This document shows, one piece after another, positions 9,715 to 35,976 of a DNA stretch of 38,963 bases. The notes under the pieces are model-generated. The model saw only the letters and a list, made by a program, of their open reading frames with translations. It was not told the origin of the DNA and did no database searches. The position numbers and the translations under genes are program-made. Within the stretch, counting starts at the first letter, position 1. Each line of letters starts with the position of its first letter. This DNA comes from a virus: the IMG/VR virus record IMGVR_UViG_3300010885_051447, positions 1 to 38,963 of that record, one strand, 5' to 3'.

Positions 9715-11703
9715 ATGGCACTAGATAAACACCAGTTAGAAGCTGTCAAGCGGTGCCAGAAATCATGTTCATGGTTTCTTAGAAACTTCGGCAAGATCAA
9801 ACACCCGATGGCTGGAATAATTCCATTCAATGTTTTCAACTATCAAAAGCATGCTTTAAAATGCTTTAGAACAAATAGATTTAACATATTCAAAAAATGT
9901 AGACAAGTAGGCGCTTCAAAAATCGCTGGAGGTTTCGCGTTATGGTACGCGATGTTTCAAAATAATAAAACCATTCTTATCGTCTCTCGCCGAAACGAAG
10001 ATGCAATGGGTTTTCTACGAGAGCAGATCATGTTCCCCTTCAACCATCTACCCGAATGGATGAAGGAACACTGGAAGCCGGTGAAGCAAACAGAACACGA
10101 AGTGATCTTCCCTAACGGGTCGAGAATAAGCAGTCTGACAAGCCATCCTGACGTTATGCGCTCAAACAGTTCCTCGTTAAACATTATCGACGAAGCAGCG
10201 TTCATCCAAGGCATGGATGAAATGTGGGCGTCAGCAGCTCCCACATTAAACATGGGTGGTAGTGTTATAGCAATCAGCACCACTGCTGGTATCGGCGGAT
10301 GGTACTGGAATACTTGGGTAGATGCGGAAGCTGGCTTAAATAGCTGGAACCCAATTGTGATAAATTGGTGGGATATGGACTGGGTCATCAAATATGTGGA
10401 CCCGTTAAGCAAAAAAGATGTGAGGATCTGTCCGATAGACGGAATTCGCCCATGTAAAAATTCAGATGAGATTAAAAAATATGGCCCCTATTGGTCCCCA
10501 TGGTTAGAGCACCAGTATCAGAATCTTGTCTCAGAAGGTGAAGCCTGGAAATTCGAACAGGAAATCCTCGCATCCTTTGTTGGTAGCGGCAATACCGTTT
10601 TAGATAAAGAGGTCCTGTCGCTTATATCGACGACTGTTCGAGACCCAGAGACACGAGTTAAAGGGACCCAGGTTTACATCCACCCTGTAACAGGCCAATC
10701 CGAAGCGCAGGATTTCGAATTTGATGACGCAGATCAGGGGCTCTGGATCTTTAAGAAACCGGTAATCGCTCTACCAGAAAAACGAATAAATGGCAAGATA
10801 GTAGACCCAGGCCAAGGCGCTCACACTTACGTTATGGGTGTCGATATTTCAACAGGCAAAGGCCGTGACTATAGCGCAATAGAGGTGTTCGACTTGGAGG
10901 AGCAAGAACAAGTAGCTGAATTCATGGCTCGTGTTCTACCAAGAGAATTAGTAAAATATGTCGACAGAATAGGACGCTATTATAATAATGCTGTGGCTGT
11001 CGTAGAACGTAACAACGGCGGAGACATTGTTATTGATAGTCTTAGATATGATGTGAACTACCCCAAGCTTTGGAGGAAAAAAGACATAAATGACAAACCC
11101 GTACCCCAAAGCGGAACACGAAGAAAGCAACGAGCGCTAAAAGTATCGCATTACGGTTATAACACAAGCAATGCCAGTAAGGCTATTCTTAACAAGTACT
11201 TGACTGATTGTATTCGAGCTAATCCAGAAGAAACATGGAAGATCTACAGCAAGAGATTGTATAAACAGCTGCAGATCTACGTCAGGAAAAGAGATAGGTC
11301 TGGCAGAGACACCGGCAGGACTGAGGCAGAAGACGGTGCTGGCAACTTCGATGACCTTGTGATGAGTACAGCTTTAGCACTTGTTGGTACAAGCGATGGT
11401 TTTGTGCTTGATGCTGGCAATATGATGCCTACGAATGGCAGCATTGATTTCACTAGCATGACTGGCCCGATGCTGTACGGCGATAGCGCTATGATTGATT
11501 ACCAGAAGAGCTTTATTGAGAAGGGTGGTCAGATGACTTTGATGCCGATGGCGCTTAGCCCAGAAGAGCTTCCTGAGACTGTGGCTTCTAGAGTTATCGA
11601 TGCTTATACGTTGCAGCTTGGAGCTATTCCTATAAGCCAGGGTAAGCCGATTGTCACCCCAAGAGATTATTTCTATACTAAAGCTCCTAAGAATAATAAA
11701 TAA
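9715..11703 (+). CDS. Terminase large subunit, T4 gp17-like
   Basis: Packaging motor ATPase and headful nuclease, 662 residues. The ATPase domain has a Walker A variant CRQVGASK (62-69), Walker B NIIDEAA (Asp159, Glu160) and the coupling motif STTAG (about residues 192-196). The C-terminal RNase H-like nuclease has GVDISTGKGRDYSAIEVFD (Asp377), VVERNNGGD (Glu431) and NFDDLVMSTALA (Asp546/547), the acidic triad expected from gp17. Two ATGs lie four bases apart in different frames, at 9711 and 9715; only 9715 is in frame. Composition changes to G/T-rich after about 11200. Confidence 0.95.
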   Translation: MALDKHQLEAVKRCQKSCSWFLRNFGKIKHPMAGIIPFNVFNYQKHALKCFRTNRFNIFKKCRQVGASKIAGGFALWYAMFQNNKTILIVSRRNEDAMGFLREQIMFPFNHLPEWMKEHWKPVKQTEHEVIFPNGSRISSLTSHPDVMRSNSSSLNIIDEAAFIQGMDEMWASAAPTLNMGGSVIAISTTAGIGGWYWNTWVDAEAGLNSWNPIVINWWDMDWVIKYVDPLSKKDVRICPIDGIRPCKNSDEIKKYGPYWSPWLEHQYQNLVSEGEAWKFEQEILASFVGSGNTVLDKEVLSLISTTVRDPETRVKGTQVYIHPVTGQSEAQDFEFDDADQGLWIFKKPVIALPEKRINGKIVDPGQGAHTYVMGVDISTGKGRDYSAIEVFDLEEQEQVAEFMARVLPRELVKYVDRIGRYYNNAVAVVERNNGGDIVIDSLRYDVNYPKLWRKKDINDKPVPQSGTRRKQRALKVSHYGYNTSNASKAILNKYLTDCIRANPEETWKIYSKRLYKQLQIYVRKRDRSGRDTGRTEAEDGAGNFDDLVMSTALALVGTSDGFVLDAGNMMPTNGSIDFTSMTGPMLYGDSAMIDYQKSFIEKGGQMTLMPMALSPEELPETVASRVIDAYTLQLGAIPISQGKPIVTPRDYFYTKAPKNNK

Positions 11704-20875: not shown

Positions 20876-21604
20876 ATGCAATACTGCCAAGTCAGCCCAA
20901 GCGGTAATATCTCCGGCCCCCAGTGGCTGCCACAGTATACCCCGACTGTCTCCAATTTCAACGCGCTCGATGATGCAGCCTTAGCCGAACACGGATATTA
21001 CCCGTACTACCCATCACCAGTTCCAAGTTATGACCCCGCCGCACAAGGGGTTGATCAGACCTTCACCTTCAATGGCACATATGTATCAGACACGTGGACA
21101 GTCTTTGATCTAATGGCAGAAGAAAAAGCTGCATATGTGCTTGTAAGACTAACTGAAATAGGCCGACAAATCGGCTCATTCTTGGATAAACAAGTATCTG
21201 TCAAGCAATACGATTCCATACTGTCGGCTACAAGCTGGACAATGAGCAGCATCTCGACTTACAAGGCCGAAGGAGAAGCGGCTACAGCATATCGGGACAC
21301 AGTCTGGAACCTGTTTTACATTATGGCTCAGGCTGTGCAGACGGGTACTCAGCCAGTTCCAACTGTGAGCGAGTTTTTTGCAACATTACCAACACTTTGG
21401 CCTGAAAACAACGCCAATGGTACCTCCAGTGATACATCCAATGGGACATCCAATGGGACATCCAATGGGACATCCAATGGGACATCCAGCGGCACATCCA
21501 ATGGCACCTCCAATGGGACATCCAATGGCACCTCAAATGGTACCTCAAATGGTACCTCAAATGGCACCTCAAATGGTACCTCAAATGGCACATTGGTTTT
21601 ATGA
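20876..21604 (+). CDS. Fibre-associated protein with NGTS-repeat tail
   Basis: A 242-residue protein directly after the giant adhesin with a GGAG site before its ATG. Residues 1-180 form a probable folded domain: a Tyr/Pro-rich front (GYYPYYPSPVPSYDP), then helices that include KAAYVLVRLTEIGRQIG. The arrangement recalls small proteins encoded behind tail-fibre genes that act as assembly chaperones or tip proteins. Residues about 180-238 are repeats of Ser-Asn-Gly-Thr, unlike any chaperone tail, and would be flexible and hydrophilic. Function is inferred only from position. The repeats may vary in number between relatives. Confidence 0.72.
   Translation: MQYCQVSPSGNISGPQWLPQYTPTVSNFNALDDAALAEHGYYPYYPSPVPSYDPAAQGVDQTFTFNGTYVSDTWTVFDLMAEEKAAYVLVRLTEIGRQIGSFLDKQVSVKQYDSILSATSWTMSSISTYKAEGEAATAYRDTVWNLFYIMAQAVQTGTQPVPTVSEFFATLPTLWPENNANGTSSDTSNGTSNGTSNGTSNGTSSGTSNGTSNGTSNGTSNGTSNGTSNGTSNGTSNGTLVL
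21415..21592 (+). repeat. 12-bp tandem repeat coding SNGT units
   Basis: About 14 copies of a 12-base unit like TCCAATGGGACA encode SNGT, with third-base drift that falls in blocks (GGGACA early, GGTACC or GGCACC late). There are thirteen NGT triplets. No spacers are present, so this is not a CRISPR array. Confidence 0.9.
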
Positions 21605-21927: not shown

Positions 21928-23199
21928 CTAAACGCTATAGACGTAGCAAAATTTCTTTCCGCCATATTTCTTAACATAACCAAAGAGACTTGAATATTCT
22001 GATTCTGTCAATTTTGATCTCGTAGCAAGGCCATACAAAGTTTTTTTGTGCATTACGAAGCCTTCTTTGTCAGTATACCAATAGTCTGGCTCGACTTCGT
22101 GGAGCAATTTGAAGTTAGAAGCTTTGTAGATAGTGCCATAGTGCCCAACAGTCGTATCAGAATATGCCACTATATTTTTTTTAATTTGTTTCATCGTTCT
22201 TGATATTAACCAGCTAGCAAAGTTCTTCTTTTGATAAGAGGGATGAATACAAAACCTTGAGAGTTCCACAAAATCGCCAAAAAGATGACTTAAGTTCTGT
22301 CTTAGCGGAGGGCTAAAAACGACACATGCTACCAGCTTATCATTCAAATAAGCCCCAAAGGTCTTACCACCACGCCCTTTGCCTATGTAATGATATGCGT
22401 TTAAAAATGATTTCAAATCATCTTTTGTGACGTCTTTTATAGTTATTTCATCGAAAGAAAACATTTCGATATTGATATCAATACCTAACTTGGCTTTTAA
22501 GCGATTTAAAGCTTTTTCTTTTGTGCGAAACTCGTGTTCCCAAATGTACATTATCTCGTATTCAGGGAAATACCTCTCAATATAAGTGAATTTAGCTCTA
22601 TCTGATCGTTTGACGTTATCTTGAATATGCCAATAATCACCTTGGACCTCGATTAGCAATTTTTTTCCGTTATTAATAGGCACAAGACAGTCAAACACAT
22701 AGTGCCCTAATCTTGTTTTATCGCTTTCTTTTATATAATCTACTTTTAAATCGTCCAATAAAGTATAGAGAAGATTTTGGACAGAGCTAATGCGAGGCTG
22801 CTGACACCTTAGTTTGGCCATATTCTCTCTAGATGCGTTACCAAACTTGTATATGTTATTATCTAACACTGCTTTTCTATATTTTGGATCTTGCCATTTT
22901 TGTTTAATAATCGTTGACTGTATGCATTTATAATCTTCTTCAGACTTTCTCTGGACTTGTTTATTTCTGTAAGTATCATCTTTCCAATTAGCAGTTACCT
23001 GTGTGCTAATTTCATTACTTCTTTCAAGACCTACGCAAGAAGGGCATTTATAGATGTGCTCCTTTTTGGTTCTTAATTTGATTTCGCTTGTTTTATTGCA
23101 GGCAACACAGGAGCATATGACTGTTGGCCTCTTAATGCCTATCAATTCGTTCAATGAGCCATACCCATACTTTGCTTTTGTCTTCAACCAGTCAATCAT
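21928..23199 (-). CDS. Composite zinc-ribbon / Vsr-like nuclease / Mom-like GNAT protein (copy 1)
   Basis: Probably a free-standing homing-type endonuclease with an added acetyltransferase-like domain, 423 residues. The N-terminus has a zinc ribbon CVAC (31-34) and CPSC (52-55). Residues about 65-135 carry short NUMOD-like repeats (WKDDTYRNK, WQDPKYRKA). The nuclease core has FDCLVP (Asp170), LLIEVQGDYWH (Glu184, His191), DRAKFTYIERYFPEYEIMYI, then WEHEF, the layout of Vsr and of the EDxHD homing nucleases. Residues about 262-405 resemble the phage Mu Mom family: ELSRFCIHPSYQKKNFASWL, then AYSDTTVGHYGTIYKAS (Asp348, Tyr358), compared with ADPEQGHHGGIYQ in Mom. It lies opposite to all neighbours, between fibre genes and portal, with AGGAG before its ATG. 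A second copy lies at 29402. Confidence 0.75.
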   Translation of the reverse strand: MIDWLKTKAKYGYGSLNELIGIKRPTVICSCVACNKTSEIKLRTKKEHIYKCPSCVGLERSNEISTQVTANWKDDTYRNKQVQRKSEEDYKCIQSTIIKQKWQDPKYRKAVLDNNIYKFGNASRENMAKLRCQQPRISSVQNLLYTLLDDLKVDYIKESDKTRLGHYVFDCLVPINNGKKLLIEVQGDYWHIQDNVKRSDRAKFTYIERYFPEYEIMYIWEHEFRTKEKALNRLKAKLGIDINIEMFSFDEITIKDVTKDDLKSFLNAYHYIGKGRGGKTFGAYLNDKLVACVVFSPPLRQNLSHLFGDFVELSRFCIHPSYQKKNFASWLISRTMKQIKKNIVAYSDTTVGHYGTIYKASNFKLLHEVEPDYWYTDKEGFVMHKKTLYGLATRSKLTESEYSSLFGYVKKYGGKKFCYVYSV

Positions 23200-23249: not shown

Positions 23250-25232
23250 ATGCCTAGTAATTGGCTTGTCTTTGATAGAATACGCGCGCTGACCAAATCC
23301 GCGAACGTATTCAGAGCAGATAAAATATTTCAGGATCAGTCCAGCTTAGATAAGCTCACTACAGGTGGAGAATTCCTGGATTTCAGTTCCCAAGCTGCGA
23401 TATTAGATCAGACTAATCTTCAGATAAATCGTTTGGAGCGTTATAAGGATTATGAGCAGATGGATCAAACCGGCGAAGTAAGTCTTGCCCTGGACTTATA
23501 CGCCGATGAAGCTTCCCTAGTCGATAGTGAACGAAAGCACACGCTAGTCATAAAAGCAAAAAATAAAAGGCTTAAAAAAGAATTAGAAGACTTATTCTAT
23601 AACATACTAAGATGGGACAATTTCTGTCGTCCCACTATGAGATACCTCTGCAAATATGGCGACGCCCCGTTTGAAATAGTATTAGACCAAAACCGTGGTG
23701 GCGTTAGCTCGCTGCGGTTCATGAATGTCTACAATTTTACAAGAATTGAGACTAGGTATGGTGACCTAATCGGTTTTTTCTTTATGGATGCTCTCTTTCC
23801 AAAACCACAGTTTTTACATCCTTGGCAGGTGATGCATTTACGTCTTACGAGCTTCGAAAACATCTATCACCCTTATGGTAGAAGCTTGCTTGATGGCGGT
23901 AGGAAGGCTTTTAAGCAGTTGCGGTTGATGGAAGATGCTGCTCTGATTTATAGAATCACCAGAGCTCCTGAGAAAAGGAAGTTCGTGATTCCCGTCGGTA
24001 ACATTCCTCCGAAGGAAGTCCCTGAGTACATGCAGATGGTCGCTAGGACGTTTAAGAGGCAGCGGTTCTATAATCCGACCACCGGTGCTTTTGATGAACG
24101 ATATTCTCCGTTGATCCAAGAGGATGATTTCTTTTTACCACGTCGTCCTGATGGTTCTGGCCCTGATATCGAAGTGATGCCTGGTGCTGAGAATCTCGAT
24201 CAGATCAAGGATATCGAGTATTTCAAGAAAAAGATGATTGCTCCCATGAAGATCCCGTTTGCGAGAGTCGGGATTGGCGATGGTGCTGGTGAGGCTAACG
24301 ATAAGTCGCTATCGCAGTCCAGTTCTGAGTTTGCTAAGGCTGTTCAGTGGGTGCAGCGTGAGGGTGTTAATGGCTTAACTAAGGTTGCTATTGTTCACCT
24401 TGCGTTGCGCGGTTATTCTGTGGATGATATGAAGGGCTTTGAGCTGATGTTTTCTGCTGGCTCTGCTTTGGAGGAGCTTTATAGGATTGAGACTTGGCAG
24501 ACTCGTGCTTCTGTTATGAATGATTTAAAGGATTTGGGCTGGTTTCCTAAGGAGTGGATTGTTACTCATTTTACTGATTTGTCTCCTGATGAGATTGAAG
24601 AGCTTAAGGATGTTGAGGCTGATGAGGCTGCCGGTGGTGGTGGCGGTTTTGGTGGCGGTGGTGGGATGGGCGGTGGAATGGCTGATCTTGGGGGCGGTGA
24701 TGATTTGGGCGGCATTGAGGGGGGTCCTGAGGGGGCTCCTCCTGAGGGTGGTGAGGCTGGTGGTGCTCCTCCTGAGGCTGGCGCGGCTGGTGGTCCTGAA
24801 GCTGGTGCTCCTCCTGAGGGTGGGTTACCTGAAGGCTTGTATGGGCTTGATCAGTCTGCTAATCGTCGTCTGATTAATGAGATGGCTAAGACCAGGGATC
24901 GTAACAGACGACGTAAAATCATGGAGTCTTGGACTAAGCGTCAGAATAAAGAGGTCTATAAGGATGAAGAGCAGTCCTTTAATAATGCATATGAGTTCAT
25001 GCTGAATACTAAGGAATTCGATGGTTTGACTAGGGAGAGGTATCTGAATGATGGTTTAGATATTTATGATCCTAGTCGTTCTGAGAGCTGTTTGGTCCGT
25101 TGGTCTGTTGATGAGGGTGAGAGAAATGACGCTATCAGGGAGAATTATGATGTTTTAATGGAGAATGTCGCTAAGCCTGAGGCAGAAGAGGGCGATATTA
25201 CTGATGATGATCTACCTGCTATAGTTGGGTAA
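23250..25232 (+). CDS. Portal protein, T4 gp20-like
   Basis: Forms the dodecameric ring at the head vertex through which DNA enters, 660 residues. The core resembles gp20: SLALDLYADEAS near residue 77, HPYGRSLLDGGRKAFKQLRL, RITRAPEKRKFVIPVGNIPP, then DDFFLPRR and IEVMPGAENLDQIKDIEYF. A long low-complexity insert of about 75 residues (Gly-rich GGGGGFGGGGGMGGG, then Pro/Glu/Gly units) separates the core from a C-terminal domain of about 120 residues; such an insert is not expected in T4 gp20. Composition changes from A/C-rich before about 23700 to G/T-rich after it. ATG follows GGGG at a normal distance. Confidence 0.93.
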   Translation: MPSNWLVFDRIRALTKSANVFRADKIFQDQSSLDKLTTGGEFLDFSSQAAILDQTNLQINRLERYKDYEQMDQTGEVSLALDLYADEASLVDSERKHTLVIKAKNKRLKKELEDLFYNILRWDNFCRPTMRYLCKYGDAPFEIVLDQNRGGVSSLRFMNVYNFTRIETRYGDLIGFFFMDALFPKPQFLHPWQVMHLRLTSFENIYHPYGRSLLDGGRKAFKQLRLMEDAALIYRITRAPEKRKFVIPVGNIPPKEVPEYMQMVARTFKRQRFYNPTTGAFDERYSPLIQEDDFFLPRRPDGSGPDIEVMPGAENLDQIKDIEYFKKKMIAPMKIPFARVGIGDGAGEANDKSLSQSSSEFAKAVQWVQREGVNGLTKVAIVHLALRGYSVDDMKGFELMFSAGSALEELYRIETWQTRASVMNDLKDLGWFPKEWIVTHFTDLSPDEIEELKDVEADEAAGGGGGFGGGGGMGGGMADLGGGDDLGGIEGGPEGAPPEGGEAGGAPPEAGAAGGPEAGAPPEGGLPEGLYGLDQSANRRLINEMAKTRDRNRRRKIMESWTKRQNKEVYKDEEQSFNNAYEFMLNTKEFDGLTRERYLNDGLDIYDPSRSESCLVRWSVDEGERNDAIRENYDVLMENVAKPEAEEGDITDDDLPAIVG

Positions 25233-25318
25233 ACGGGTCTGGCCGGAGAGACATATGGTTGGTTTCTCGGCAAATTTATGAGTAGTTTAATATGCATGCA
25301 AGCATAAGGGGTCATAAC

Positions 25319-28300
25319 ATGGCACAAAATCAGAATACTATGGCTAGTTCAAGTATCAAAATGGATAGCCGAAAGTTTCTGAGTGCGTTGAACGATAGCG
25401 CTCAAGCAAGAGTTTCATTCTTCTCCGAAAAGGTCGAAGAGATGGGTAAATTGGCGGGCAAACAGTGGCGATTAGCCGCTCTTCGCTCTAAAGATTTATT
25501 CATCGAAGACGTCAATGACAATCAATTTTTTGTAGCATCGCATACAAAAGATCAAGGCCGTATTGCTATCAGCAATATTCGTTCCATTGAGGTCGTTGAA
25601 GGTGAAAAAGCCGGATTATTCGAAGACTCCTGCTTGCGTTTAGTCAATGCAATCGAAGAAAACGATCAGAGCAAAATGTCATCTGCCTTTGGCAGAATGA
25701 AAGCCCAAAGATTTAGCGGACGAACAGTCCCAGCTTCGGGTGTGGTCCGCACAAGAGACGGTATTATCCGTAATATCAGTGTAAGCCAAGACGGTTTTAA
25801 CGAATCAGTTAAAGACAAGCTAGTTTCAACTATCGTAGAAAGTCTACAAGATAAAGTAATCGTCGAAAACGGTCAGGTAACTGCCGGATACTTCAACGAC
25901 GGTCAACGCTTTAGACTTCCAGTCACCAAATGGGCAACCCGCAAACTGGTAGCTCGCAAGATGCGAGACGTAGCAAACACCGCCTACCAAAGCCAAGGAT
26001 TCCAGGAAAGAATCCTCGCAGTGTCCAATATGATTGCTGAAAACAAAATAGAGAACGCAATCAAGACACTCGCACCATTCCTGATGGAAATGGAAGAATT
26101 CACACTGTTAAACCGGAAACAAGTCTCGACACTGATCGAGAACACTCTTGCAACACAAGGTGTATTCAACCAACAACTCTGTGACGACACATCAACACTC
26201 TTCTTCAAGACTAACTTAAAAGTCAGTAAGAACAAGATTGTAAAAGAGTGGAAAGCAATCGCGAGAAACGCCGAACACCCAGTGCTCGCAGAAAACGTTC
26301 AGATTCTATCAGAATCCAAAAACTTCGAAGCTTCATACAATAAATTCCTCCACCTCGTGTTCGAAGCAATCAGCAACCGCCAAGTCGCTGCTGAATCACT
26401 CGCCACGACGCTCCAAGTCCTCCGCGACAAAACGCCAAAAATCAAAGAATCGCATGACCTTTCAAGCAAGCTGATGAGCCTCATCTCACGCTTGAAGAGA
26501 TCAGACTTTGATGATTCAGCGATCTACGAAGCAGAAGACCTGATCGCCACAATTCAAGAAGAATTGTCAGCATCAGAATCACTCAAAGACTTCGATTCAA
26601 TGCCTGGCGACATGGGTGGCGCGGGTGGTGGAATGAACGCACCAGTTGATGCTATTTCGAATGGTGGCGGAAAAGGCCAACCAATCATTAATATCAACAG
26701 CCCTCTGATCCAAATCGGTGGATCAAGCGGTAGTGCTGAGGAAGAAGAGCTCGATCCAGAAATGCCACCGTCAGAAGACGATGAGCTCGACTCTATGCTC
26801 GGCGGCGAAGAAGAATTCGCACCAGCTCCGGCTCCAGCCCCGGCCCCAGCTCCAGCAGGCCCAGGTGCGGCAGGCGCTCCAGCAGCTCCAGCAGCCCCGG
26901 CACCACCTCGTTTCGAATCACGTAATCGTTTCAGCTCACTCAATGAATCGCGTCCGCTTCATTATGAGATGAACGATGAAAATGATGATCTTTCGGATGA
27001 CACAGAAGAAGTTGATCACGAAATTGAAGAGTCGAATGACCCATATGCCTTCTCAGGCAAGGGTAAGTCTTCTTATCTGATGGAATACGGTTCGCCAGTC
27101 ATTAAAGATGAAGCTGACCTCGACCGTGTTGTTGGCTTGATGCGACGTCTGGCTGTTGAGCATAACCTCACCGGCAGAGATCTTGCTGAAAATCTTGATG
27201 ACATGGCTGAAGCCAGTATCGAAGCTGTTGGCCTGAGAGTTCCAGAAGCTAGAATGGAAGCTGCTATCGAGCAAGCCGTCCAGACTTTCATTTCAGAAGC
27301 CAAGGCTCCGTTCCCAGGTGCTGCCAAGCCGTTCGCCAAGAAGCATAAGGACGACGAAGATTCGGACGAAGAATCTGAAGAATCTGATGGCAATCCTTTC
27401 GCTACGGTTAAAGAAAGCGACGATCAGCTTTCAAATGACATGGAAGAATATGACGTCTTCGAAAGAGACTCGTACGACAAGGAATACGTCAAAGTCGGTA
27501 CTAAGACAGGCAGACAGTTAGCTCAGAAATATGGCTATGATTGGGATGAAATTGTCAAGGGTGGATACATTGTTCTTGCCCGTGACATTTATAATGCCAT
27601 GGAAACTGGTAACTTGGTAGACTTGTTCGCCCGTCGTGCAGATGGAACGCCTCCTCCGGTGCATCCAGGTGACGAAGATGATGGCTTCGCAGAAGACCAG
27701 TACAAATCAGCCCGTATGAAGAAGGCTGGTTACGGCAGAGCTGGCATGACAGCTAGCAAGTCCAAGAGGGGTGTCGCCTCAGAAGGCAAGATCACTTGGC
27801 TTGAGCGACAAGAAGATGCAGCCATGGGCATGATCAACGGTGTTAACTTCATCCTTGATCACGGTGGTTCAGCTAGCTCGATTCAGCCTGTAATCCTGAG
27901 CGAAGATGGTATCAGTGCTGAAATCCCGATTCCTGCCAAACTCGTCAAGGGTGCTCTGGCTTCAGCCGGTCTGGCTAAAGGTGACTCTTCTGCCTTCACG
28001 AGATGGCTAACCGAATCGGTCGAACAGCTCCGTGGAGCCAGCTCTGAAGAAGATCAGGCTCTCAACGAAGCTATGGCAGTTATCACTACTGGCAAGAATG
28101 GTTCAATGAAGGTGGAATTGTCTGGAGATATCGACGTCGATGACGAAGATATTGATGACGAAGACATGGACGAAATGAAGCCAGTAGACGCAGTCGAGAT
28201 CGAGCCAGTTGACGACACGATCGAAGTCAAGAAAGACCTCGATGGCGACGAAATGCCTGATTTCGATAAAGACGACGAAGAAGACGAAGACGAAGAGTCT

Positions 28301-28567
28301 GATGACGAAGAGTCTGATGACGAAGAGTCTGATGAAGATGATGAGTCTGACGACGATGATGAAGGTCTGGCCGAAGATATGGACATCACAGCTCCATCAG
28401 AAGGCGGCTACAATAAAGTCGCAAACGCTGATCGCCGTGAAGTACCAAAACACGCCATCGGCAAAAAAGGTAACGGTAACAAGCTAGAGGGCATGGGTCC
28501 TGATCTTAAAACCGATGATGGCAAAGGATCAAACCCACCATTCGCAAGAAAAGGTGGCAAAAAATGA
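25319..28567 (+). CDS. Large acidic prohead-core-position protein, function unknown
   Basis: A 1082-residue protein between portal and protease, where T4 has the small prohead-core genes 67 and 68. The N-terminal about 430 residues are helical and probably folded. Then come a Gly/acidic linker, a PAPAPAP stretch (about 510-525), a domain near 540-700, an acidic linker, a segment VGTKTGRQLAQKYGYDWDEI, and another domain near 830-940. The C-terminus has extreme Asp/Glu runs including three DDEES units, and ends Lys/Gly-rich. The acidic content suits a scaffold or core protein processed by the prohead protease, but no family motif was recognised. The ATG with AAGGGG upstream is preferred to the in-frame ATG at 25292. 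The stop overlaps the protease start (ATGA). Confidence 0.75.
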   Translation: MAQNQNTMASSSIKMDSRKFLSALNDSAQARVSFFSEKVEEMGKLAGKQWRLAALRSKDLFIEDVNDNQFFVASHTKDQGRIAISNIRSIEVVEGEKAGLFEDSCLRLVNAIEENDQSKMSSAFGRMKAQRFSGRTVPASGVVRTRDGIIRNISVSQDGFNESVKDKLVSTIVESLQDKVIVENGQVTAGYFNDGQRFRLPVTKWATRKLVARKMRDVANTAYQSQGFQERILAVSNMIAENKIENAIKTLAPFLMEMEEFTLLNRKQVSTLIENTLATQGVFNQQLCDDTSTLFFKTNLKVSKNKIVKEWKAIARNAEHPVLAENVQILSESKNFEASYNKFLHLVFEAISNRQVAAESLATTLQVLRDKTPKIKESHDLSSKLMSLISRLKRSDFDDSAIYEAEDLIATIQEELSASESLKDFDSMPGDMGGAGGGMNAPVDAISNGGGKGQPIININSPLIQIGGSSGSAEEEELDPEMPPSEDDELDSMLGGEEEFAPAPAPAPAPAPAGPGAAGAPAAPAAPAPPRFESRNRFSSLNESRPLHYEMNDENDDLSDDTEEVDHEIEESNDPYAFSGKGKSSYLMEYGSPVIKDEADLDRVVGLMRRLAVEHNLTGRDLAENLDDMAEASIEAVGLRVPEARMEAAIEQAVQTFISEAKAPFPGAAKPFAKKHKDDEDSDEESEESDGNPFATVKESDDQLSNDMEEYDVFERDSYDKEYVKVGTKTGRQLAQKYGYDWDEIVKGGYIVLARDIYNAMETGNLVDLFARRADGTPPPVHPGDEDDGFAEDQYKSARMKKAGYGRAGMTASKSKRGVASEGKITWLERQEDAAMGMINGVNFILDHGGSASSIQPVILSEDGISAEIPIPAKLVKGALASAGLAKGDSSAFTRWLTESVEQLRGASSEEDQALNEAMAVITTGKNGSMKVELSGDIDVDDEDIDDEDMDEMKPVDAVEIEPVDDTIEVKKDLDGDEMPDFDKDDEEDEDEESDDEESDDEESDEDDESDDDDEGLAEDMDITAPSEGGYNKVANADRREVPKHAIGKKGNGNKLEGMGPDLKTDDGKGSNPPFARKGGKK
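28289..28333 (+). repeat. Three perfect 15-bp repeats (GACGAAGAGTCTGAT)
   Basis: Three identical in-frame copies encode DEESD units in the acidic tail. Perfect identity at third positions shows recent duplication. Confidence 0.9.
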
Positions 28568-29286
28568 TCCGCTCAAGAAACGCAAACCGCCGATCAATTG
28601 ATCGGCGGCTGATAGCCGAAACCGGCATGATTCCTGCCGGTTACTCCCTGATGCAAGACACTTACCCATTCCAAGTGCTTGACCAGAAAAAAGTGATGGC
28701 AGAAGACTCAAATGGACGCGAGCACCAAGTGATGAAAATCACCGGGCTCATCCAAATGGGCGATAACGAAAACGCCAACGGTAGAGTCTATAGCTCTAAC
28801 GATGTGCTAGGCCCAGCTGTAAGAGACATCCAAGAGGATATCTCAAGAAGATCAGTGATGGGCGAATACGACCACCCAGCAGACGCCAAAATCCACCTAG
28901 ATCGCATTAGTCACCTTATGACTAAAATCTGGATGGAAGGCAAGAAGGTATACGGTGAAGCAGAAGTGCTCCATAAACTACCACTGGGGGCATGCCTGCG
29001 GGGCCTGTTTGAGCACAAAATCCAAGTTGGGATCTCCTCTCGCGGCGTGGGCGACATGGAAATCGTCGAACACAATGGCAAAGAGATCTACAGAGTACTT
29101 CCAGGGTATTCTTTCGTGACGTGGGATGTTGTCGCCGAACCATCAGTAACTGGCGCTATTCTAAACATCTCAGAAGGACTGCAAAAAAGAGTACGTCCTA
29201 TCCAAGAGAAGAAGGCGATGTTTAGACCAGAAGTATACCAGGACATGCTTGTTAAAGAGATCAACAAGTATTTTGGTGTTAAATAA
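28564..29286 (+). CDS. Prohead maturation protease, T4 gp21-like (peptidase S77)
   Basis: Serine protease that processes the prohead core and capsid proteins during maturation, 240 residues (T4 gp21 is 212). It has NANGRVYS (about 75-82), GEYDHP with probable catalytic His104, and IQVGISSRGVGDM with catalytic Ser158 or Ser159, followed by PGYSFVTWDVVAEPS with a candidate third residue. The gene lies in the T4 position after the core gene and overlaps it by four bases (ATGA). A strong terminator follows, so the portal-core-protease set ends as one transcript. Confidence 0.93.
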   Translation: MIRSRNANRRSIDRRLIAETGMIPAGYSLMQDTYPFQVLDQKKVMAEDSNGREHQVMKITGLIQMGDNENANGRVYSSNDVLGPAVRDIQEDISRRSVMGEYDHPADAKIHLDRISHLMTKIWMEGKKVYGEAEVLHKLPLGACLRGLFEHKIQVGISSRGVGDMEIVEHNGKEIYRVLPGYSFVTWDVVAEPSVTGAILNISEGLQKRVRPIQEKKAMFRPEVYQDMLVKEINKYFGVK

Positions 29287-29344: not shown

Positions 29345-29376
29345 CATATAATCCGTAGCTTGGCAGCTCTTTGTAT

Positions 29377-29384
29377 TATAAATA
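29377..29384 (+). promoter_or_regulatory. Late promoter candidate, exact TATAAATA
   Basis: TATAAATA is identical to the T4 late -10 box. It lies just after the terminator and 18 bases before the ATG of the second nuclease/GNAT gene, with the ribosome binding site AAGGAG in between. The leader would be very short. Confidence 0.5.
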
Positions 29385-29401
29385 TAATAAGGAGCACTCA
29401 T

Positions 29402-30922
29402 ATGATAGATTGGCAGCTTTCAAAATCATCGGCAGAAATAGCGAAAAATAAAGACAAAATTATTGTCGTCTGCGAAAAATGCAATAAGCCTAGAAGCCAG
29501 CTATATCAAGTGGCTAAAAGAAAGCCAGAGCATATATGCATGTCATGTGTTAAGCAGAAGCATGAGATTAAGACTAACGAAATAGTGATTTATACTTGCA
29601 TTGATTGTGGTAAGACACAGGAGCAGCTATTTAGGGCTGGAAGGTTTAAAGATTGGAGATGCCATCATTGTGCTATGGTTCAAGGGCATAAGGATGGAAA
29701 ATTCATTGTGGTTCACAATACCCCGTCTGAAGAGGGTAAAAAGATACTATCAGAATTAGCTAAAGAGAGGTGGGCAGATAGCAGTTATAGGGACCAAATG
29801 TCTGCTAAAAAGGAGTTATCCAAAGACAGAAGATCAGAAATATCACAGAAGATATGGTCTGATACACAGAGAATTAAGATGCTATCAGAATCAGTAAAAT
29901 TGGCTTGGCAAAGAGAAGACTATTCTGAATTAAAGAGTAGGCAGAGCAAAGCTTTATGGAATAATGATGGCTACAGAGCTAAGCAATCATCAGGATATAC
30001 TGAAGACATGAAGTCCAAAATGGCTGTTGCTAGGGCTAATCAGCCTAGAGAGAGTAATATTCAGAGGTTACTCTACAAGTTTCTAGATGATTTGAATATC
30101 GCCTATCACAAAGAGGGTCCAAATACAGTGATAGGGCCATATGTCTTCGATTGTATGGTCCCTACGAGGTATAAAAGACTATTGATTGAATGTCAGGGTG
30201 ACTATTGGCATACATTAGAAAGAGCACCTGCCAGAGATAAGGCTAAATTCACCTATATCGAGAAGTATTTTCCAGAATATGAGATAATGTATATCTGGGA
30301 GCATGAATTTTATGCTAAGGATAAGGTACTCGGAAGGCTGAAGTCCAAGTTTGGCATTGATGTTAAGGTGAACGATTTTGATTTTAAGGATCTTAAAATA
30401 TCTGATGATGTATCAGCGAAGTCCTTGAATAGCTTCCTCGATGCTTATCACTATATTGGGAAGGGAAGGTCAGGCAAATGCTTTGGAGCTTTTTTAGGGG
30501 ATGAGCTTGTGGCTTGTGCCGTTTATTCTAACTTGGTCCGTCAGAATATTGGTCATCAGTTCGATGGTAAGAGTTTAGAACTAGCAAGGCTGTGTATTCA
30601 TCCCAGTTACCAAAAGCATAATATGGCGAGTTATTTTCTGTCTAAGACATTTAAGCATTTGGACTGTGATAATATTGTGAGCTATTGTGACACCACAGTT
30701 GGACATACTGGAGCTGCCTATAAGTCTTTGGGTTTTAAGATGCACCACGAGGTTGACTCTGATTATTGGTATGTGGATCAGAATGGATGGGTGATGCATA
30801 AGAAGACATTATACTCTAGGGCTAAAAGGCTTAGCACAACTGAGAACGCTTATGCAGAGCAGTTCGGATATATTAAAAAGTATGGTGGTAAGAAATTATG
30901 TTTTGTAAAGATCATCATTTAA
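29402..30922 (+). CDS. Composite zinc-ribbon / Vsr-like nuclease / Mom-like GNAT protein (copy 2)
   Basis: A 506-residue paralogue of the minus-strand protein at 21928, with the same MIDW start and domain order. Two zinc ribbons (CEKC...CMSC and CIDC...CHHC) are followed by a longer run of NUMOD-like repeats (SEISQKIWSD, LWNNDGYRAK). The Vsr-like core has VFDCMVP, LLIECQGDYWH, DKAKFTYIEKYFPEYEIMYI and WEHEF. The Mom-like domain has ELARLCIHPSYQKHNMASYF and SYCDTTVGHTGAAYKSLGF. All proposed active-site residues are kept. ATG 29402 with AAGGAG is preferred to an in-frame TTG at 29360. The gene sits just past the protease terminator, interrupting the T4 order 21-22-23, and converges with the methyltransferase gene with an 8-base overlap. 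Confidence 0.77.
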   Translation: MIDWQLSKSSAEIAKNKDKIIVVCEKCNKPRSQLYQVAKRKPEHICMSCVKQKHEIKTNEIVIYTCIDCGKTQEQLFRAGRFKDWRCHHCAMVQGHKDGKFIVVHNTPSEEGKKILSELAKERWADSSYRDQMSAKKELSKDRRSEISQKIWSDTQRIKMLSESVKLAWQREDYSELKSRQSKALWNNDGYRAKQSSGYTEDMKSKMAVARANQPRESNIQRLLYKFLDDLNIAYHKEGPNTVIGPYVFDCMVPTRYKRLLIECQGDYWHTLERAPARDKAKFTYIEKYFPEYEIMYIWEHEFYAKDKVLGRLKSKFGIDVKVNDFDFKDLKISDDVSAKSLNSFLDAYHYIGKGRSGKCFGAFLGDELVACAVYSNLVRQNIGHQFDGKSLELARLCIHPSYQKHNMASYFLSKTFKHLDCDNIVSYCDTTVGHTGAAYKSLGFKMHHEVDSDYWYVDQNGWVMHKKTLYSRAKRLSTTENAYAEQFGYIKKYGGKKLCFVKIII

Positions 30923-31652
30923 TTTTAATGAATATCGCATGCCCATTTAGATTATATAAATACAGCAAATTCTCATCTTCTCTAAGCATATCACAAAGCA
31001 AGCTTATTCCATTGCATTGTTCAAACCCATAGTCATCAAATACGAGTATACCACCGACTGAAAGCTTTGGCAGGCACCATTGCGTAATGTCTCTTGCTGA
31101 CTCATAAACGTCTACATCACAATGTAATAGCGCTATATTTTCTGAAATCATATGCCCAGTGTCGTCGGGAAATACGCCAACTAGCACCTCCGCGTTTGTG
31201 ATATCTAATTCGTCCAGTATTGTCTGGACTGTCGCTCTAGAAGTATCAGAATGTTCTCCACCAATATAAGTTAAGTCTTTACTGGATGCCTTGACGACCC
31301 CACTAAACGTATCTGCCAAGTATACTTTTTTGTCGGGTGCGGCTTTGGCTAGAAGAGCCCCGGAGCCTCCCCTCCATACACCAACTTCTAGGATTACACC
31401 TGGTATCTTGTGGGACTGCTTTGCTAGCGTCCAGAGTTCATAGCACCTATAATGGTCGACGAGGGTGTAGTTTATGCCTATTTTGGAATAGATTTCTATG
31501 AATTCTATATCGCTATACCAAGGGCTTAGTGTAGAGGCAGGAACTATATGGTTATAAGCATATGGCGAGTTTTTTACCCCCCATGGTTGCATTCTTTTTA
31601 GGATATTCAAAGAGACTTCGCAGGTCTCTTTATTAGCTGGTATATTGTTCAT
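30915..31652 (-). CDS. TylF/macrocin-type SAM-dependent O-methyltransferase
   Basis: Class I methyltransferase of 245 residues. The SAM-binding loop is ILEVGVWRGGSGALLA (about 87-102). LADTFSG follows, then ALLHCDVDVYESARDI with an acidic metal-binding style pair, and the strand GGILVFDDYG, the usual TylF-family signature. This family methylates sugar hydroxyls in antibiotics and surface polysaccharides, so a carbohydrate substrate is likely. AAGGGA precedes its ATG. It is divergent from the glycosyltransferase-like gene 71 bases away, a pairing that suggests joint sugar modification. A methyltransferase acting on DNA is less likely, as no DNA-methylase motif is seen. Confidence 0.85.
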   Translation of the reverse strand: MNNIPANKETCEVSLNILKRMQPWGVKNSPYAYNHIVPASTLSPWYSDIEFIEIYSKIGINYTLVDHYRCYELWTLAKQSHKIPGVILEVGVWRGGSGALLAKAAPDKKVYLADTFSGVVKASSKDLTYIGGEHSDTSRATVQTILDELDITNAEVLVGVFPDDTGHMISENIALLHCDVDVYESARDITQWCLPKLSVGGILVFDDYGFEQCNGISLLCDMLREDENLLYLYNLNGHAIFIKIK

Positions 31653-31681
31653 TTTTTGGTCCCTTATGTTGTTCGGCTATA

Positions 31682-31694
31682 TGTAAATACTACT
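31682..31694 (+). promoter_or_regulatory. Candidate late promoter TGTAAATACTACT
   Basis: It matches the extended T4 late consensus TATAAATACTATT at 11 of 13 bases, 30 bases before the glycosyltransferase-like ATG, in the divergent gap shared with the methyltransferase gene. Confidence 0.45.
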
Positions 31695-31723
31695 AGAATG
31701 TCTCTAAGACCAAAGAAGGATAT

Positions 31724-32428
31724 ATGAATAAAATCTTGTTTCAGCCTTGGGGTGGCCTCGGAGATAATCTGCAATACAGCACATTGCCGGAGTTATACGC
31801 TGATTGTGGATGGGATTTTTACGTCTCAGAAGCTAATGCCTATAGGAGTCCGGAGATATACGACCTAGTGTGGGGGACAAATCCATTCGTTAAAGGCATA
31901 TCGAAAGAACCGCATAATATCGGTAGTTGCATGTATGATAAGAGGATAGTGCCTCATAAAAACATTGTTTTTAATCAAGAGATCGCTCACGGTTTTGCCC
32001 CTAAGAATGATCTCTGCAAGTTATATTACAAGCCCAATTTTATAGATGAGCTTAAGGATATAGTTGTCATAGATATTAGTGGTGTGAGTGGTTCTAATAG
32101 CATACCGTTGCGATTCAACGAGATGATTCGGGAGCAGTTCCCGGGTAAGCTTGTAGTGAGTCCTGTTTTTAAGCGCAAGGTTACCACGGCTGTGAATAAT
32201 GAGTTCTCCGTTAATGGACATGTTGATGTTGATTCGTTGATGCACTATGCTGACGTTATCCATAGTTGTCATCATTTTGTGTGTTCATTTAGTGGTCAGG
32301 CTGTTCTTGCTTCTGCTTTAGGTAAGGCTGACACGACTTGCTATATCCCTGATGGCTGGCAGGGGCATTTGACTTCTGGGCAGAGGCACCAGTTTTGCTT
32401 TTCAAATATCAAGTACGTTACATTTTGA
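31724..32428 (+). CDS. GT-B glycosyltransferase-like protein (GT9-like)
   Basis: A 234-residue protein, shorter than typical heptosyltransferases (about 330). The N-terminus ILFQPWGGLGDNLQYSTLPELYA has the glycine-rich loop of GT-B enzymes. The C-terminal half has VDVDSLMHYADVIHSCHHFVC followed by SFSGQAVLASALGK, which matches the nucleotide-sugar-binding 'ADLFVGNDSGPSHLAAAL'-type region of GT9 family members. Missing middle sequence could reflect a compact phage enzyme or loss of part of the acceptor domain. GAAGGA precedes ATG. Together with the methyltransferase it may decorate a virion protein or host glycan. Confidence 0.65.
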   Translation: MNKILFQPWGGLGDNLQYSTLPELYADCGWDFYVSEANAYRSPEIYDLVWGTNPFVKGISKEPHNIGSCMYDKRIVPHKNIVFNQEIAHGFAPKNDLCKLYYKPNFIDELKDIVVIDISGVSGSNSIPLRFNEMIREQFPGKLVVSPVFKRKVTTAVNNEFSVNGHVDVDSLMHYADVIHSCHHFVCSFSGQAVLASALGKADTTCYIPDGWQGHLTSGQRHQFCFSNIKYVTF

Positions 32429-32450
32429 TGTGCTTTGCGAGGGGTGATCT

Positions 32451-32549
32451 ATGCTGTGCATCAGGCTGATAGTAGAGCTGATTGGGTGGTTCATTGTGGG
32501 TATACTTGTTGTTGGGTTTGCTATTAAGTGCTCATCTTATAAGAGCTGA
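32451..32549 (+). CDS. Small single-pass membrane peptide
   Basis: A 32-residue product with GAGGGGT ahead of its ATG. Almost the whole N-terminal two thirds is hydrophobic (LIVELIGWFIVGILVVGFAI), ending in a short polar tail with Cys and Lys. It fills most of the gap between the glycosyltransferase-like and next gene. It resembles in length the peptide at 4402 but shares no clear sequence with it. Confidence 0.5.
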   Translation: MLCIRLIVELIGWFIVGILVVGFAIKCSSYKS

Positions 32550-32620
32550 TAATGTAGTCTTGTCGCCGTTATGGTTTGATTGTGAAAATATTTTATACTT
32601 GAACCATGTTGGGGTGCGCT

Positions 32621-33626: not shown

Positions 33627-34337
33627 ATGGATAAGATCAAAGAGTTGCTCTCCAAGTCTGGTTGCAAGCCTGAATTGGTAAATGCGATTGCTGAATCTTT
33701 GGACAGATACAAGACAGGTCTTCAAGAGCAATTTGCTGCTAATTTTAATAGCACAGTTGAAAAAACCAAGAAGGTCTGCGTCGAAGAAACGGAAGCCCAC
33801 AAGCGTGAGCTAGCCCGTCGTCTCCAGATTTTCTGTGAGACAAAATCCGCTGCGATCGAGACCCAGCTGGCTAAAATGTCGGCATTAAGCGAATCCCAAG
33901 CAATGACCAAGCTCAAGAGCGTTCGAGCACTGCTCGAAGGCGTACAGCTGAATGGTATTGCAAATGGACAATCCGCCGCCGCTCTGGAAAAAGCCAACCG
34001 TCGAGCTCAGCAACTTGCAGAAGAACGCAACAGAGCAGTCGCCGAAGCTAATCGTAAGACAGCTATCGCCGAAAAAGCCCTGAAGCAGAACCGAGCCCTA
34101 GTCGCCGAAAACGCTAAATTCCAAAACGCGAGCAGACCGGTTGTAGAAAACCGCTCACCCCGCCGTATGGAACCTACCGTGCGTCAAAGCAAACCGACAA
34201 CGACTCGGGCCACTCTTCTCGAAAGCCAAGAGCGCCGTCCAGCCTCGAAGCCAAGACAAAGTAACGTAACTGTCCGACCGACCAGTAACATTACAGTCCT
34301 GGACATCGCGGCAAACATGGACACGGACCTCGTCTGA
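33627..34337 (+). CDS. Prohead scaffold protein, T4 gp22-like
   Basis: Predicted internal scaffold removed by the protease during head maturation. The 236-residue product is nearly all helical. Residues about 15-160 show coiled-coil character, with an Ala/Glu/Arg-rich stretch (RRAQQLAEERNRAVAEA), followed by a basic, Pro/Arg/Thr-rich tail. The assignment relies on composition, length (T4 gp22 is 269) and its position directly before the capsid gene. The GGAGCTGATA site precedes its ATG. Composition turns from G/T-rich to A/C-rich after about 33750. Confidence 0.75.
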   Translation: MDKIKELLSKSGCKPELVNAIAESLDRYKTGLQEQFAANFNSTVEKTKKVCVEETEAHKRELARRLQIFCETKSAAIETQLAKMSALSESQAMTKLKSVRALLEGVQLNGIANGQSAAALEKANRRAQQLAEERNRAVAEANRKTAIAEKALKQNRALVAENAKFQNASRPVVENRSPRRMEPTVRQSKPTTTRATLLESQERRPASKPRQSNVTVRPTSNITVLDIAANMDTDLV

Positions 34338-34389: not shown

Positions 34390-35976
34390 ATGCTACCCAG
34401 AACACAATCACGCGCCCCACAAGGCCGTCGTCACCTCACCGAAAACCGCCAAGCCATCGCTGGAGCCGCCACGGACCTCCACAAGGCCAGCATTATCCAC
34501 GAGTCCAAGAAAAACCAACTCGTTGGCAAATGGGCCTCAGTCCTCAACAAGTGCAAAGAAGTACCTAAGGCCAAATTCGGCCTCATGGCCAGCATCCTGG
34601 AAAACCAGTTCAACGCCTGGAACCCAGAACGTCGCTCCATGATCCTGGAAGACCAGACCACGACAGCGAACATCGCTGACTTCACACGGTTTGCCCTCCC
34701 CCTCATCCGCAAATCATATCCAAAGCTGATCGCCGACAACCTGGTCGGTGTCCAGCCAATGAGCCAGCCAGCATCGCTCATCTTCTACATCCGCTATCGC
34801 TACGCCCTCTCCAAGGGACAAACGGTCGCCGGAACACAGATTATGCGCCAAAACACAGCCCAAAGTTACGCCCGTAACAACGGCTGGGCTCTTGACCCAT
34901 ACTACTCCTCACAACAAGTTGTGGGTGAAACCGGTACGATTCTGAACCGTAACCACGTCCAACAAACACTGGCTCACCGCCCAGTTCTCGCCGGTACAGT
35001 AGCCGTAGAAGTCTACACCGACGAAGCCGGAGCAAGCCCAGCTTGTAACGACCCAACACCATGTCTCCGCGTCACCTTCGACTCCGACGGCGCAGTCGAC
35101 ACGGTTGTCATCGGCGACTGTAGCTTCACCGCTAATCTGGCAGTCAACGAAGCCTCTTCAAGCTTCAACCACGCCACCGGCGAAGTAAACATCCGCCTCA
35201 CAGCGGGCATCTACCCAGTTGGCGCGATCGCTCGCATCAACTACGAGTACGACCTGGAATCCAACCCATTCCAACCAGAAGTCACCCTCAGCATCGACAG
35301 TGATTCGGTCTCCGCAATCACCCGTAAGCTGAAGACATCCTGGAGCCTCGAAGCCGCTCAAGACCTCAAGTCAGTCCATAACATTGACGCTGAGAGCACC
35401 CTGACCGACCTCATGGCCGATGAAATGGTTGCCGAAATCGACCGGGAAATCATCAATGACCTCATCATTGCTGCCGCTATCCGCGCCGATCACAACTTCG
35501 CCACCGCTGCTGGTGCTTCGGTTAACTTCACCGACCGTAACATCGCCCTGATGTACAAGTCACTCGAAGTTGCCAACATCATCCACAGAACCACCCTGCG
35601 TGGCCCTGCTAACTGGATGGTTATGAGCGCCGACATCGCATCGAAGTTCGAGCAACTCAACGACTTCCGCGCCTCAGACGCCATGAACACCGAAGGTGTG
35701 GACATCGGAATCATGAACGTTGGAACAATCCAAGGCAAGATGCGCCTCTACAAGGACCCATTGTTCCCTAACTGCAAAATCCTGATGGGCTTTAAGGGAT
35801 CAAGCGTTCTGGATGCTGGTTACTTCTATGCTCCTTATATTCCGCTGCTGAGCACCCCTACGGTTCTCGACCCCAACAGCTACTCGCCATCTAAGGGCAT
35901 CATGTGCCGTTATGGTAAGAAGCTGATTGAGGATGGCGGTCTATACTATGCGACAATAAATGTTTCTAACCTGTAA
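34390..35976 (+). CDS. Major capsid protein, T4 gp23-like
   Basis: Main head shell subunit, 528 residues (T4 gp23 is 521). The diagnostic region ADFTRFALPLIRKSYPKLIA then DNLVGVQPMSQPASLIFYIR closely follows gp23. The C-terminus has APYIPLLSTPTVLDPNSYSP and YGKKLIEDGGLYYATI. Candidate protease cleavage sites of the gp21 type (hydrophobic-X-Glu) are ILE/N (about residue 60-61) and ILE/D (about 78), before the conserved domain. High use of C-ending codons up to about 35740 fits a highly expressed gene, but the last 200 bases change to G/T-ending codons. A strong terminator follows. Confidence 0.96.
   Translation: MLPRTQSRAPQGRRHLTENRQAIAGAATDLHKASIIHESKKNQLVGKWASVLNKCKEVPKAKFGLMASILENQFNAWNPERRSMILEDQTTTANIADFTRFALPLIRKSYPKLIADNLVGVQPMSQPASLIFYIRYRYALSKGQTVAGTQIMRQNTAQSYARNNGWALDPYYSSQQVVGETGTILNRNHVQQTLAHRPVLAGTVAVEVYTDEAGASPACNDPTPCLRVTFDSDGAVDTVVIGDCSFTANLAVNEASSSFNHATGEVNIRLTAGIYPVGAIARINYEYDLESNPFQPEVTLSIDSDSVSAITRKLKTSWSLEAAQDLKSVHNIDAESTLTDLMADEMVAEIDREIINDLIIAAAIRADHNFATAAGASVNFTDRNIALMYKSLEVANIIHRTTLRGPANWMVMSADIASKFEQLNDFRASDAMNTEGVDIGIMNVGTIQGKMRLYKDPLFPNCKILMGFKGSSVLDAGYFYAPYIPLLSTPTVLDPNSYSPSKGIMCRYGKKLIEDGGLYYATINVSNL

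Follow-up and report, generated by a model that had tools for sequence, protein, structure and literature searches.

A giant acidic protein in the prohead-core slot of a T4-type phage clade, a predicted substrate of the neighbouring head protease

In phage T4 two small genes, those of gp67 (80 amino acids, aa) and gp68 (141 aa), lie between the genes of the portal and the prohead protease, and the question raised by the virus record IMGVR_UViG_3300010885_051447 of IMG/VR (38,963 bases, all of which were analysed and are called here the window) is what a single acidic protein of 1082 aa is doing in that same slot. An initial annotation, made from the letters alone, had proposed that it may be a giant core protein cut by the S77 protease into internal peptides or products resident in the capsid. 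The answer that we favour, with moderate confidence, is that a clade of T4-type phages uses it as a giant prohead-core protein, which the head protease processes. In kind, a prohead-core protein within a cassette of T4 type would be ordinary; what is unusual is its form.

The head genes of the window follow the order terminase large subunit (TerL), portal, core protein, S77 protease, scaffold-position gene and major capsid protein (MCP), as in T4 (17-20-67-68-21-22-23); between terminase and portal, neither a sheath gene (18) nor a tube gene (19) was recognised here. The open reading frame (ORF) of the core protein stands between the portal (PF07230) and the S77 protease (PF03420), in the slot of the small T4 prohead-core genes, where the initial annotation had placed it. 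The genes of the cassette are the following:

9715..11703, plus strand: terminase large subunit (phrog_2, 1e-33)
23250..25232, plus strand: T4-type portal protein (PF07230, E 1e-68)
25319..28567, plus strand: gene of the giant core protein (1082 aa; net charge of the protein -94)
28564..29286, plus strand: S77 prohead protease (PF03420, E 6e-15), with I-x-E-T-G near the N-terminus
33627..34337, plus strand: scaffold candidate in the gp22 position, 236 aa, basic (+13)
34390..35976, plus strand: major capsid protein (phrog_138), with E87/D88 aligning on T4 gp23 E65/A66

The frame of the core gene is open throughout, and the protein is as acidic as first described (Asp and Glu together 20.0%, with the most negative net charge among the 27 window proteins). 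The longest ORF of the gene starts at 25292 (1091 aa), but it is the start at 25319 that has AAGGGG just 5' of it; the stop codon overlaps the protease ATG in an ATGA. This ORF is not a chance frame, because it has 35 complete relatives (the window included), each of them one ORF of 920-1112 aa. Relatives were gathered from the viral collection by scans with the core protein, the family alignment, two parts of the core protein and the protease, and they lie in contigs of uncultured viruses, the longest reaching 408 kb. The set of 35 was formed without L002 and L003 (99-100% like the window), L009 (99% like L007), further loci of the same contigs and the partial ORFs L004, L016, L066, L077, L079, L082 and L089. 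Among the first 31 complete members no two are more than 88% alike, and identity to the window protein is 44-63%; four more distant complete members share the same layout, and the net charge lies between -61 and -143 in 35 of 35. A contig of 231,672 bases gives a 99% match across the whole core protein, and the gene is split in none of 49 compared loci, some copies being cut by the contig end.

The place of the gene is likewise conserved, the gap between the portal and core ORFs being below 300 nucleotides (nt) in 36 of the 39 loci showing both genes, and the protease ORF starting at most 16 nt from the core end, or overlapping it, in 26 of the 34 loci showing core and protease. These spacing counts come from 41 loci, each ORF being read from its first start codon; both L007 and L009, which are 99% alike, are counted, and the partial ORFs L016, L066, L077, L079, L082 and L089 were kept along with L009, while L004 was not.

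Modelling with AlphaFold2 on the 31-member alignment (mean predicted local distance difference test, pLDDT, 56.6; predicted template modelling score, pTM, 0.28; 493 of 1082 residues below 50) predicts three folded segments and long, mostly disordered ones (424-590, 663-723, 769-821 and 937-1060), so that the several domains and polyacidic linkers of the initial annotation hold as a prediction. The predicted layout is as follows:

25355..26587, plus strand: N-terminal folded domain, residues 13-423 (AlphaFold2, mixed confidence)
25619..25726, plus strand: residues 101-136, a hairpin of helices with a weak, non-significant hhalign resemblance to the gp67 N-terminus
26588..27087, plus strand: linker of Ala/Pro and acidic character, residues 424-590, predicted to be largely disordered (pLDDT mostly below 50)
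26681..26722, plus strand: conserved hydrophobic segment in the linker, about residues 455-468, PIININSPLIQIGG
27110..27301, plus strand: second domain, three helices, residues 598-661 (AlphaFold2, pLDDT 82-91 over 601-660)
27419..27658, plus strand: residues 701-780, a lineage-specific insert that few other members share
27785..28126, plus strand: third domain, alpha/beta, residues 823-936 (AlphaFold2, confidence dropping past 900)
28127..28375, plus strand: polyacidic segment, residues 937-1019, 52 Asp or Glu of 83
28376..28564, plus strand: C-terminal tail conserved among members, residues 1020-1082 (net +4 in the window protein)

The first domain is predicted to begin as alpha+beta with a long beta sheet and to continue mostly as helices, with low-confidence stretches at 131-160, 168-187 and 261-284, and the third has pLDDT values mostly of 75-89 up to residue 900 (mean pLDDT 76.7 and pTM 0.57 when folded alone). 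About residues 718-771 of the lineage-specific stretch are predicted to be helical with middling confidence, and the conserved linker segment at 455-468 is a possible docking motif.

The T4 protease gp21 cleaves after L/I-X-E and degrades gp22, gp67 and gp68, according to PMC9026906 and PMC9958956. We scored 276 alignable linker columns, each occupied in 80% or more of the 35 members and all drawn from a disordered set that excluded the low-confidence stretches inside domain 1. Five of these columns hold a Glu conserved in at least 80% of members (543, 571, 792, 983 and 1019), and the residue two positions before it (-2) is hydrophobic in 94%, 86%, 100%, 0% and 69% of members, respectively. 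Three of the five reach 80% hydrophobic at -2, against a base of 10.5% of columns (binomial P 0.0098), and at other offsets from the conserved Glu never more than one of the five columns does so. With the low-confidence stretches of domain 1 added, the motif hydrophobic-x-Glu (Phi-x-E) is present at six of eight conserved Glu (P 0.0003). The hydrophobic residue at -2 is isolated, having no conserved hydrophobic at other near positions, at 3/5 linker Glu compared with 3/23 folded ones. The candidate sites, two of them (543 and 571) between domains 1 and 2, one (792) between domains 2 and 3 and one (1019) in the tail, are:

26945..26947, plus strand: E543, conserved Phi-x-E, predicted protease site, Glu in 97%
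27029..27031, plus strand: E571, conserved Phi-x-E, predicted protease site, Glu in 91%
27692..27694, plus strand: E792, invariant Phi-x-E with Asp-Gln (DQ) after it in the majority of members; predicted protease site that shares the pentamer of the MCP site
28373..28375, plus strand: E1019, invariant at a Glu/Asp step, hydrophobic at -2 in 69%, possible protease site

The second line of evidence comes from the shell. In T4, gp23 loses a propeptide of 65 residues (PMC9958956), and E87/D88 of the window MCP aligns exactly on gp23 E65/A66 and on a Glu of the MCPs of nine other phages. All 22 of 22 clade MCPs have [IL]-[LF]-E-D, and the residue after the site Glu is Ala in seven of ten reference phages (Asn, Ser and Ile in the rest) and Asp-Gln in the seven clade rows. 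The pentamer Phi-x-EDQ is present in 35/40 core proteins, 21/21 MCPs and 2/24 TerL proteins, and absent from the portals (0/36), proteases (0/31), scaffolds (0/31) and other ORFs (0/390) of the surveyed loci; the survey covered 70 loci with ORFs dereplicated at 90%, the core class including fragments and the class of other ORFs including chance frames on both strands. The classes other than core and MCP hold two matches in about 130,000 residues and therefore give a chance of about 1.7% of finding one in 1082 aa. I-x-E-T-G is found near the N-terminus of the protease in 24 of 24 and hydrophobic-x-E-[SNAG]-Q in the scaffold in 25 of 25, and hence a conserved Phi-x-E is common to MCP, scaffold, protease and core. 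Because of the conserved Phi-x-E in its linkers and the pentamer of the MCP, we predict that the core protein is a substrate of the S77 protease; Phi-x-Glu in accessible segments, as looked for in such a substrate, is found at E543, E571 and E792 and is not exclusive to the linkers.

A number of results weigh against the processed core protein and have to be set beside this evidence. The count of hydrophobic-x-Glu in the linkers shows no excess (8.7 against 8.8 in shuffles), E983 falls outside the Phi-x-E rule and E1019 only partly within it, and E174, E183 and E274 in the low-confidence parts of domain 1 are Phi-x-E as well. In the folded columns Phi-x-E occurs at 10/23 conserved Glu (base 24%, P 0.033), as would be expected of amphipathic helices, and the motif is consequently not specific to linkers. 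The main statistic comes from only five linker columns, and counts across members are not independent and do not multiply the evidence, because the family is related by descent. The pentamer alone is no proof, since the ribonucleotide reductase of the window also holds one Phi-x-EDQ (seen in a pentamer survey of 15 loci). Descent from gp67 or gp68 is not borne out either, phrog_1064 and phrog_1049 being unmatched and the gp67-like matches weak and unspecific. Adopting a cautious view, we place the support for the sites in the few isolated conserved linker positions and the MCP pentamer and not in their number, because of the shuffle-level count and the Phi-x-E of the folded parts.

We infer that the protein is located in the prohead, is cut there and has its pieces lost or retained. 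An acidic three-domain protein would be deposited within the head as it grows, between portal and shell, standing where gp67 and gp68 stand and probably also carrying the polyacidic part that others put in gp22. Once the shell closes, the neighbouring S77 protease would cut at E543, E571, E792 and perhaps E1019, in the disordered linkers, and these cuts would free three folded domains and acidic peptides, making room for DNA. A bolder form of this scheme is tentative and, taken as a whole, rather doubtful: one self-dismantling polyprotein may take the place of gp67, of gp68 and of the acidic bulk of gp22, pair by opposite charge with a short basic scaffold, be cut at the Phi-x-E-D(Q) code of the shell, so that core removal and shell maturation would be set off by one signal, and deliver three domains inside the head.

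The pairing by charge brings in the protein at the gp22 position. In ten reference phages, whose slot proteins come to 63-1040 aa together, this protein is acidic in 10/10 (-5 to -60), and in the window the slot protein has -94 and the gp22-position protein +13. Across the clade the gp22-position proteins have 227-337 aa and are basic in 24/25; the exception, L050 (-11), is an ORF with a long N-terminal extension that has +8 from an inner start, which brings the count to 25/25. PA5oct is intermediate, with -39 for its slot protein and -5 at the gp22 position. The charge table consists of the ten reference phages, and Phosso, RM378, SP-15, GXN1, XacN1, LR756508 and the marine loci L025-L029 stand outside it. 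The core protein holding the acid charge held elsewhere by the gp22-position protein, and the short basic nature of the latter in this clade, would both suit a reading that we consider unlikely, namely that the core protein is the main prohead scaffold with a gp22-like job and that the short basic protein is its partner. Against this, the gp22 position is occupied in every locus of the 49-locus comparison that reaches the MCP, and hhalign found no similarity between the core protein and gp22.

Internal proteins are usually lineage-specific, and the core protein keeps its position between portal and protease throughout the clade, which makes it distinctly unlikely that we are dealing with a polyprotein of internal (ejected) proteins, whose domains would remain in the head and pass into the host together with the DNA, as do the internal proteins of T4 or the E proteins of giant phages. 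In favour of such a polyprotein, cuts at the linker sites would release the folded domains intact, and the cleaved E proteins known in SPN3US, as described in PMC7411985, are a precedent. Very unlikely, in our view, is an uncut structural protein of the head or portal vertex whose conserved Glu sites serve as short motifs for binding: the shuffle-level triplet count, the conserved Phi-x-E of the folded parts and the absence of Glu from the other conserved linker segment (455-468) would agree with it, and the invariant E792, with the pentamer of an MCP site aligned on the mapped cut of T4, argues against it.

Searches for homologues and folds bear on the last alternative. At E 0.01 none of 50,697 phage records matches the core protein, none of 74 candidate stretches for the family in the prokaryote genome collection is a relative, and there is no significant match in Pfam, PHROGs or PDB sequences. 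The best PDB sequence match, a 14-3-3 protein (E 0.0071), was taken as chance, and at laxer limits PHROGs gave best E values of 0.0074 and 0.017 to families whose function is not known, which are not significant. Searching 31 relatives against Pfam likewise gave nothing significant, the commonest match being DUF2267 in six of them (best E 0.031). Foldseek found no match to the core model at E <= 0.001 in PDB or viral models. Re-alignment with VIA reached best Z values of 7.2 for the full model (on helices) and 4.4 for domain 3, which may reflect a mere common arrangement, and a Z of about 6 for a cystatin/NTF2-like arrangement at residues 16-93, a level that the tool calls possibly a common arrangement. 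None of the known folds proposed for the model is convincing, and the absence of a fold match does not establish a new fold. No description of the protein was found in the open-licence literature, as far as titles and the openings of abstracts tell. The initial annotation had named homology to an enzyme as one result that would speak against a core protein, and no significant enzyme family appears in Pfam or PHROGs. That an enzyme or cargo gene chanced into the slot is hardly credible, given the absence of significant Pfam, PHROGs and Foldseek matches and the conserved place of the gene, even with inserted genes close by (Mom/MTES_1575 and TylF-like) and with the ribonucleotide reductase genes that SP-15 has between portal and protease.

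The neighbourhood shows further features. The portal is extended at its C-terminus (about residues 460-660; 24630-25232); in many relatives the match stops at this extension, which contains an Ala/Pro/Glu/Gly tandem repeat at 24735-24794. Over-long ORFs resembling intein carriers occur for the portal (L009 1751-4930, L085 805-5565, L135 1-3528, L136 465-3632), the insert of L136 having Cys first and His-Asn last, followed by Ser, and for the protease (L085 9388-11343, L135 7816-9735); no over-long version of the core gene was seen in relatives. Two related genes, about 45% identical, flank the portal-protease block (21928-23199, minus strand, and 29360-30922, plus strand) and combine MTES_1575 nuclease-like with Mom/GNAT-like domains; relatives of the pair lie elsewhere in some loci, and the plus-strand gene is HNH, homing endonuclease or Mom-like in PHROGs. 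Between this Mom-like gene and the scaffold, 30915-33535 holds a TylF-like methyltransferase gene on the minus strand and two unassigned genes, likewise in L002 and L003, and loci L007-L024 have no match to the genes of this interval. Upstream, 21414-21593 consists of 15 copies of a 12-base unit encoding an Asn-Gly-Thr-Ser repeat near the end of a 242-aa protein (20876-21604). The MCP and protease share an N-terminal tag, M-L-P-[TS]-R, in 13/22 MCPs (34390-34500) and 15/24 proteases (28564-28640); the window's own two proteins have near variants, which also occur in others, and a scan of ten contigs gave 18 matches against 6 for the reversed pattern. The tag may be a shared prohead-targeting propeptide.

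How cores are built and cleared in large T4-type phages is poorly known. As of 2017 a gp22 counterpart had not been confirmed in any giant phage, according to PMC5694885, and PMC2984593 says that gp67 and gp68 mutations turn the prolate head of T4 isometric and that cyanophages, with isometric heads, are without gp67 and gp68. The family described here provides a defined and widely conserved candidate with four named sites, its cleavage being a specific prediction, and the charge swap between core and scaffold positions is a prediction applicable to other clades.

Placing the protein among known core proteins requires taking its likenesses and differences together. It shares with gp67 (phrog_1064), a protease substrate in T4 according to PMC9958956, the position directly after the portal gene and a polyacidic stretch, but has 1082 aa in place of 80 and, unlike the small gp67 with its polyacidic tail, follows its polyacidic segment with a conserved tail of 63 aa and net +4. 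The window protein and three of its parts have no match to phrog_1064, which was also absent at E <= 0.1 from eight clade contigs of 122-408 kb that may be incomplete, with a positive T4 control. With a single gp67 in hhalign, residues 1-160 scored 19.4, below one control (21.4). A nine-row gp67-like profile, whose OLIVR5 row is probably no gp67 relative, gave 17.5 at residues 101-136 (E 0.028, probability 1.8%), with controls at 8.3-13.4 and a huge-phage profile at 15.1; domain 2 scored 16.9 and residues of about 598-701 scored 20.9 with the same profile. We do not claim a gp67 match, because this last region scores as high or higher and the resemblance is not specific. With gp68 (phrog_1049) the protein shares the location between portal and protease, where gp68 is a protease substrate in T4, but gp68 has 141 aa and net +9, and no phrog_1049 match was found to the window protein or in the eight clade contigs (T4 control positive). 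Strong acid charge is shared with gp22-type scaffolds, but gp22 sits between protease and MCP, the place held here by the 236-aa protein.

The nearest cultured portals belong to Microcystis phage Mel-JY01 and Flavobacterium phage immuto, whose slots, likewise flanked by portal and protease, hold three genes each (276, 105 and 178 aa; 284, 73 and 360 aa) as against one gene here; a fusion of either set was tried as an origin, and no segment stood clearly above controls in hhalign or hmmsearch. LR756511, an uncultured huge phage of 595 kb, has a shorter slot protein of 616 aa before its protease. The N-termini of the two proteins are in register (22-142 to 12-132, score 24.1 against controls of at most 18.9), but homology is suggestive only (E 0.017, probability 2.7%; hmmsearch E 0.48, not significant); the 616-aa protein also resembles the first helices of gp67 at a similar place, not significantly. 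RM378 has a 781-aa ORF after the portal, followed by a gene not annotated as a protease, and Bacillus phage SP-15 has ribonucleotide reductase genes, one of 780 aa, between portal and protease. The core gene of the window is the largest single slot gene among the phages examined and, without membership of their families being claimed, its product probably works in place of, and like, the core proteins of T4.

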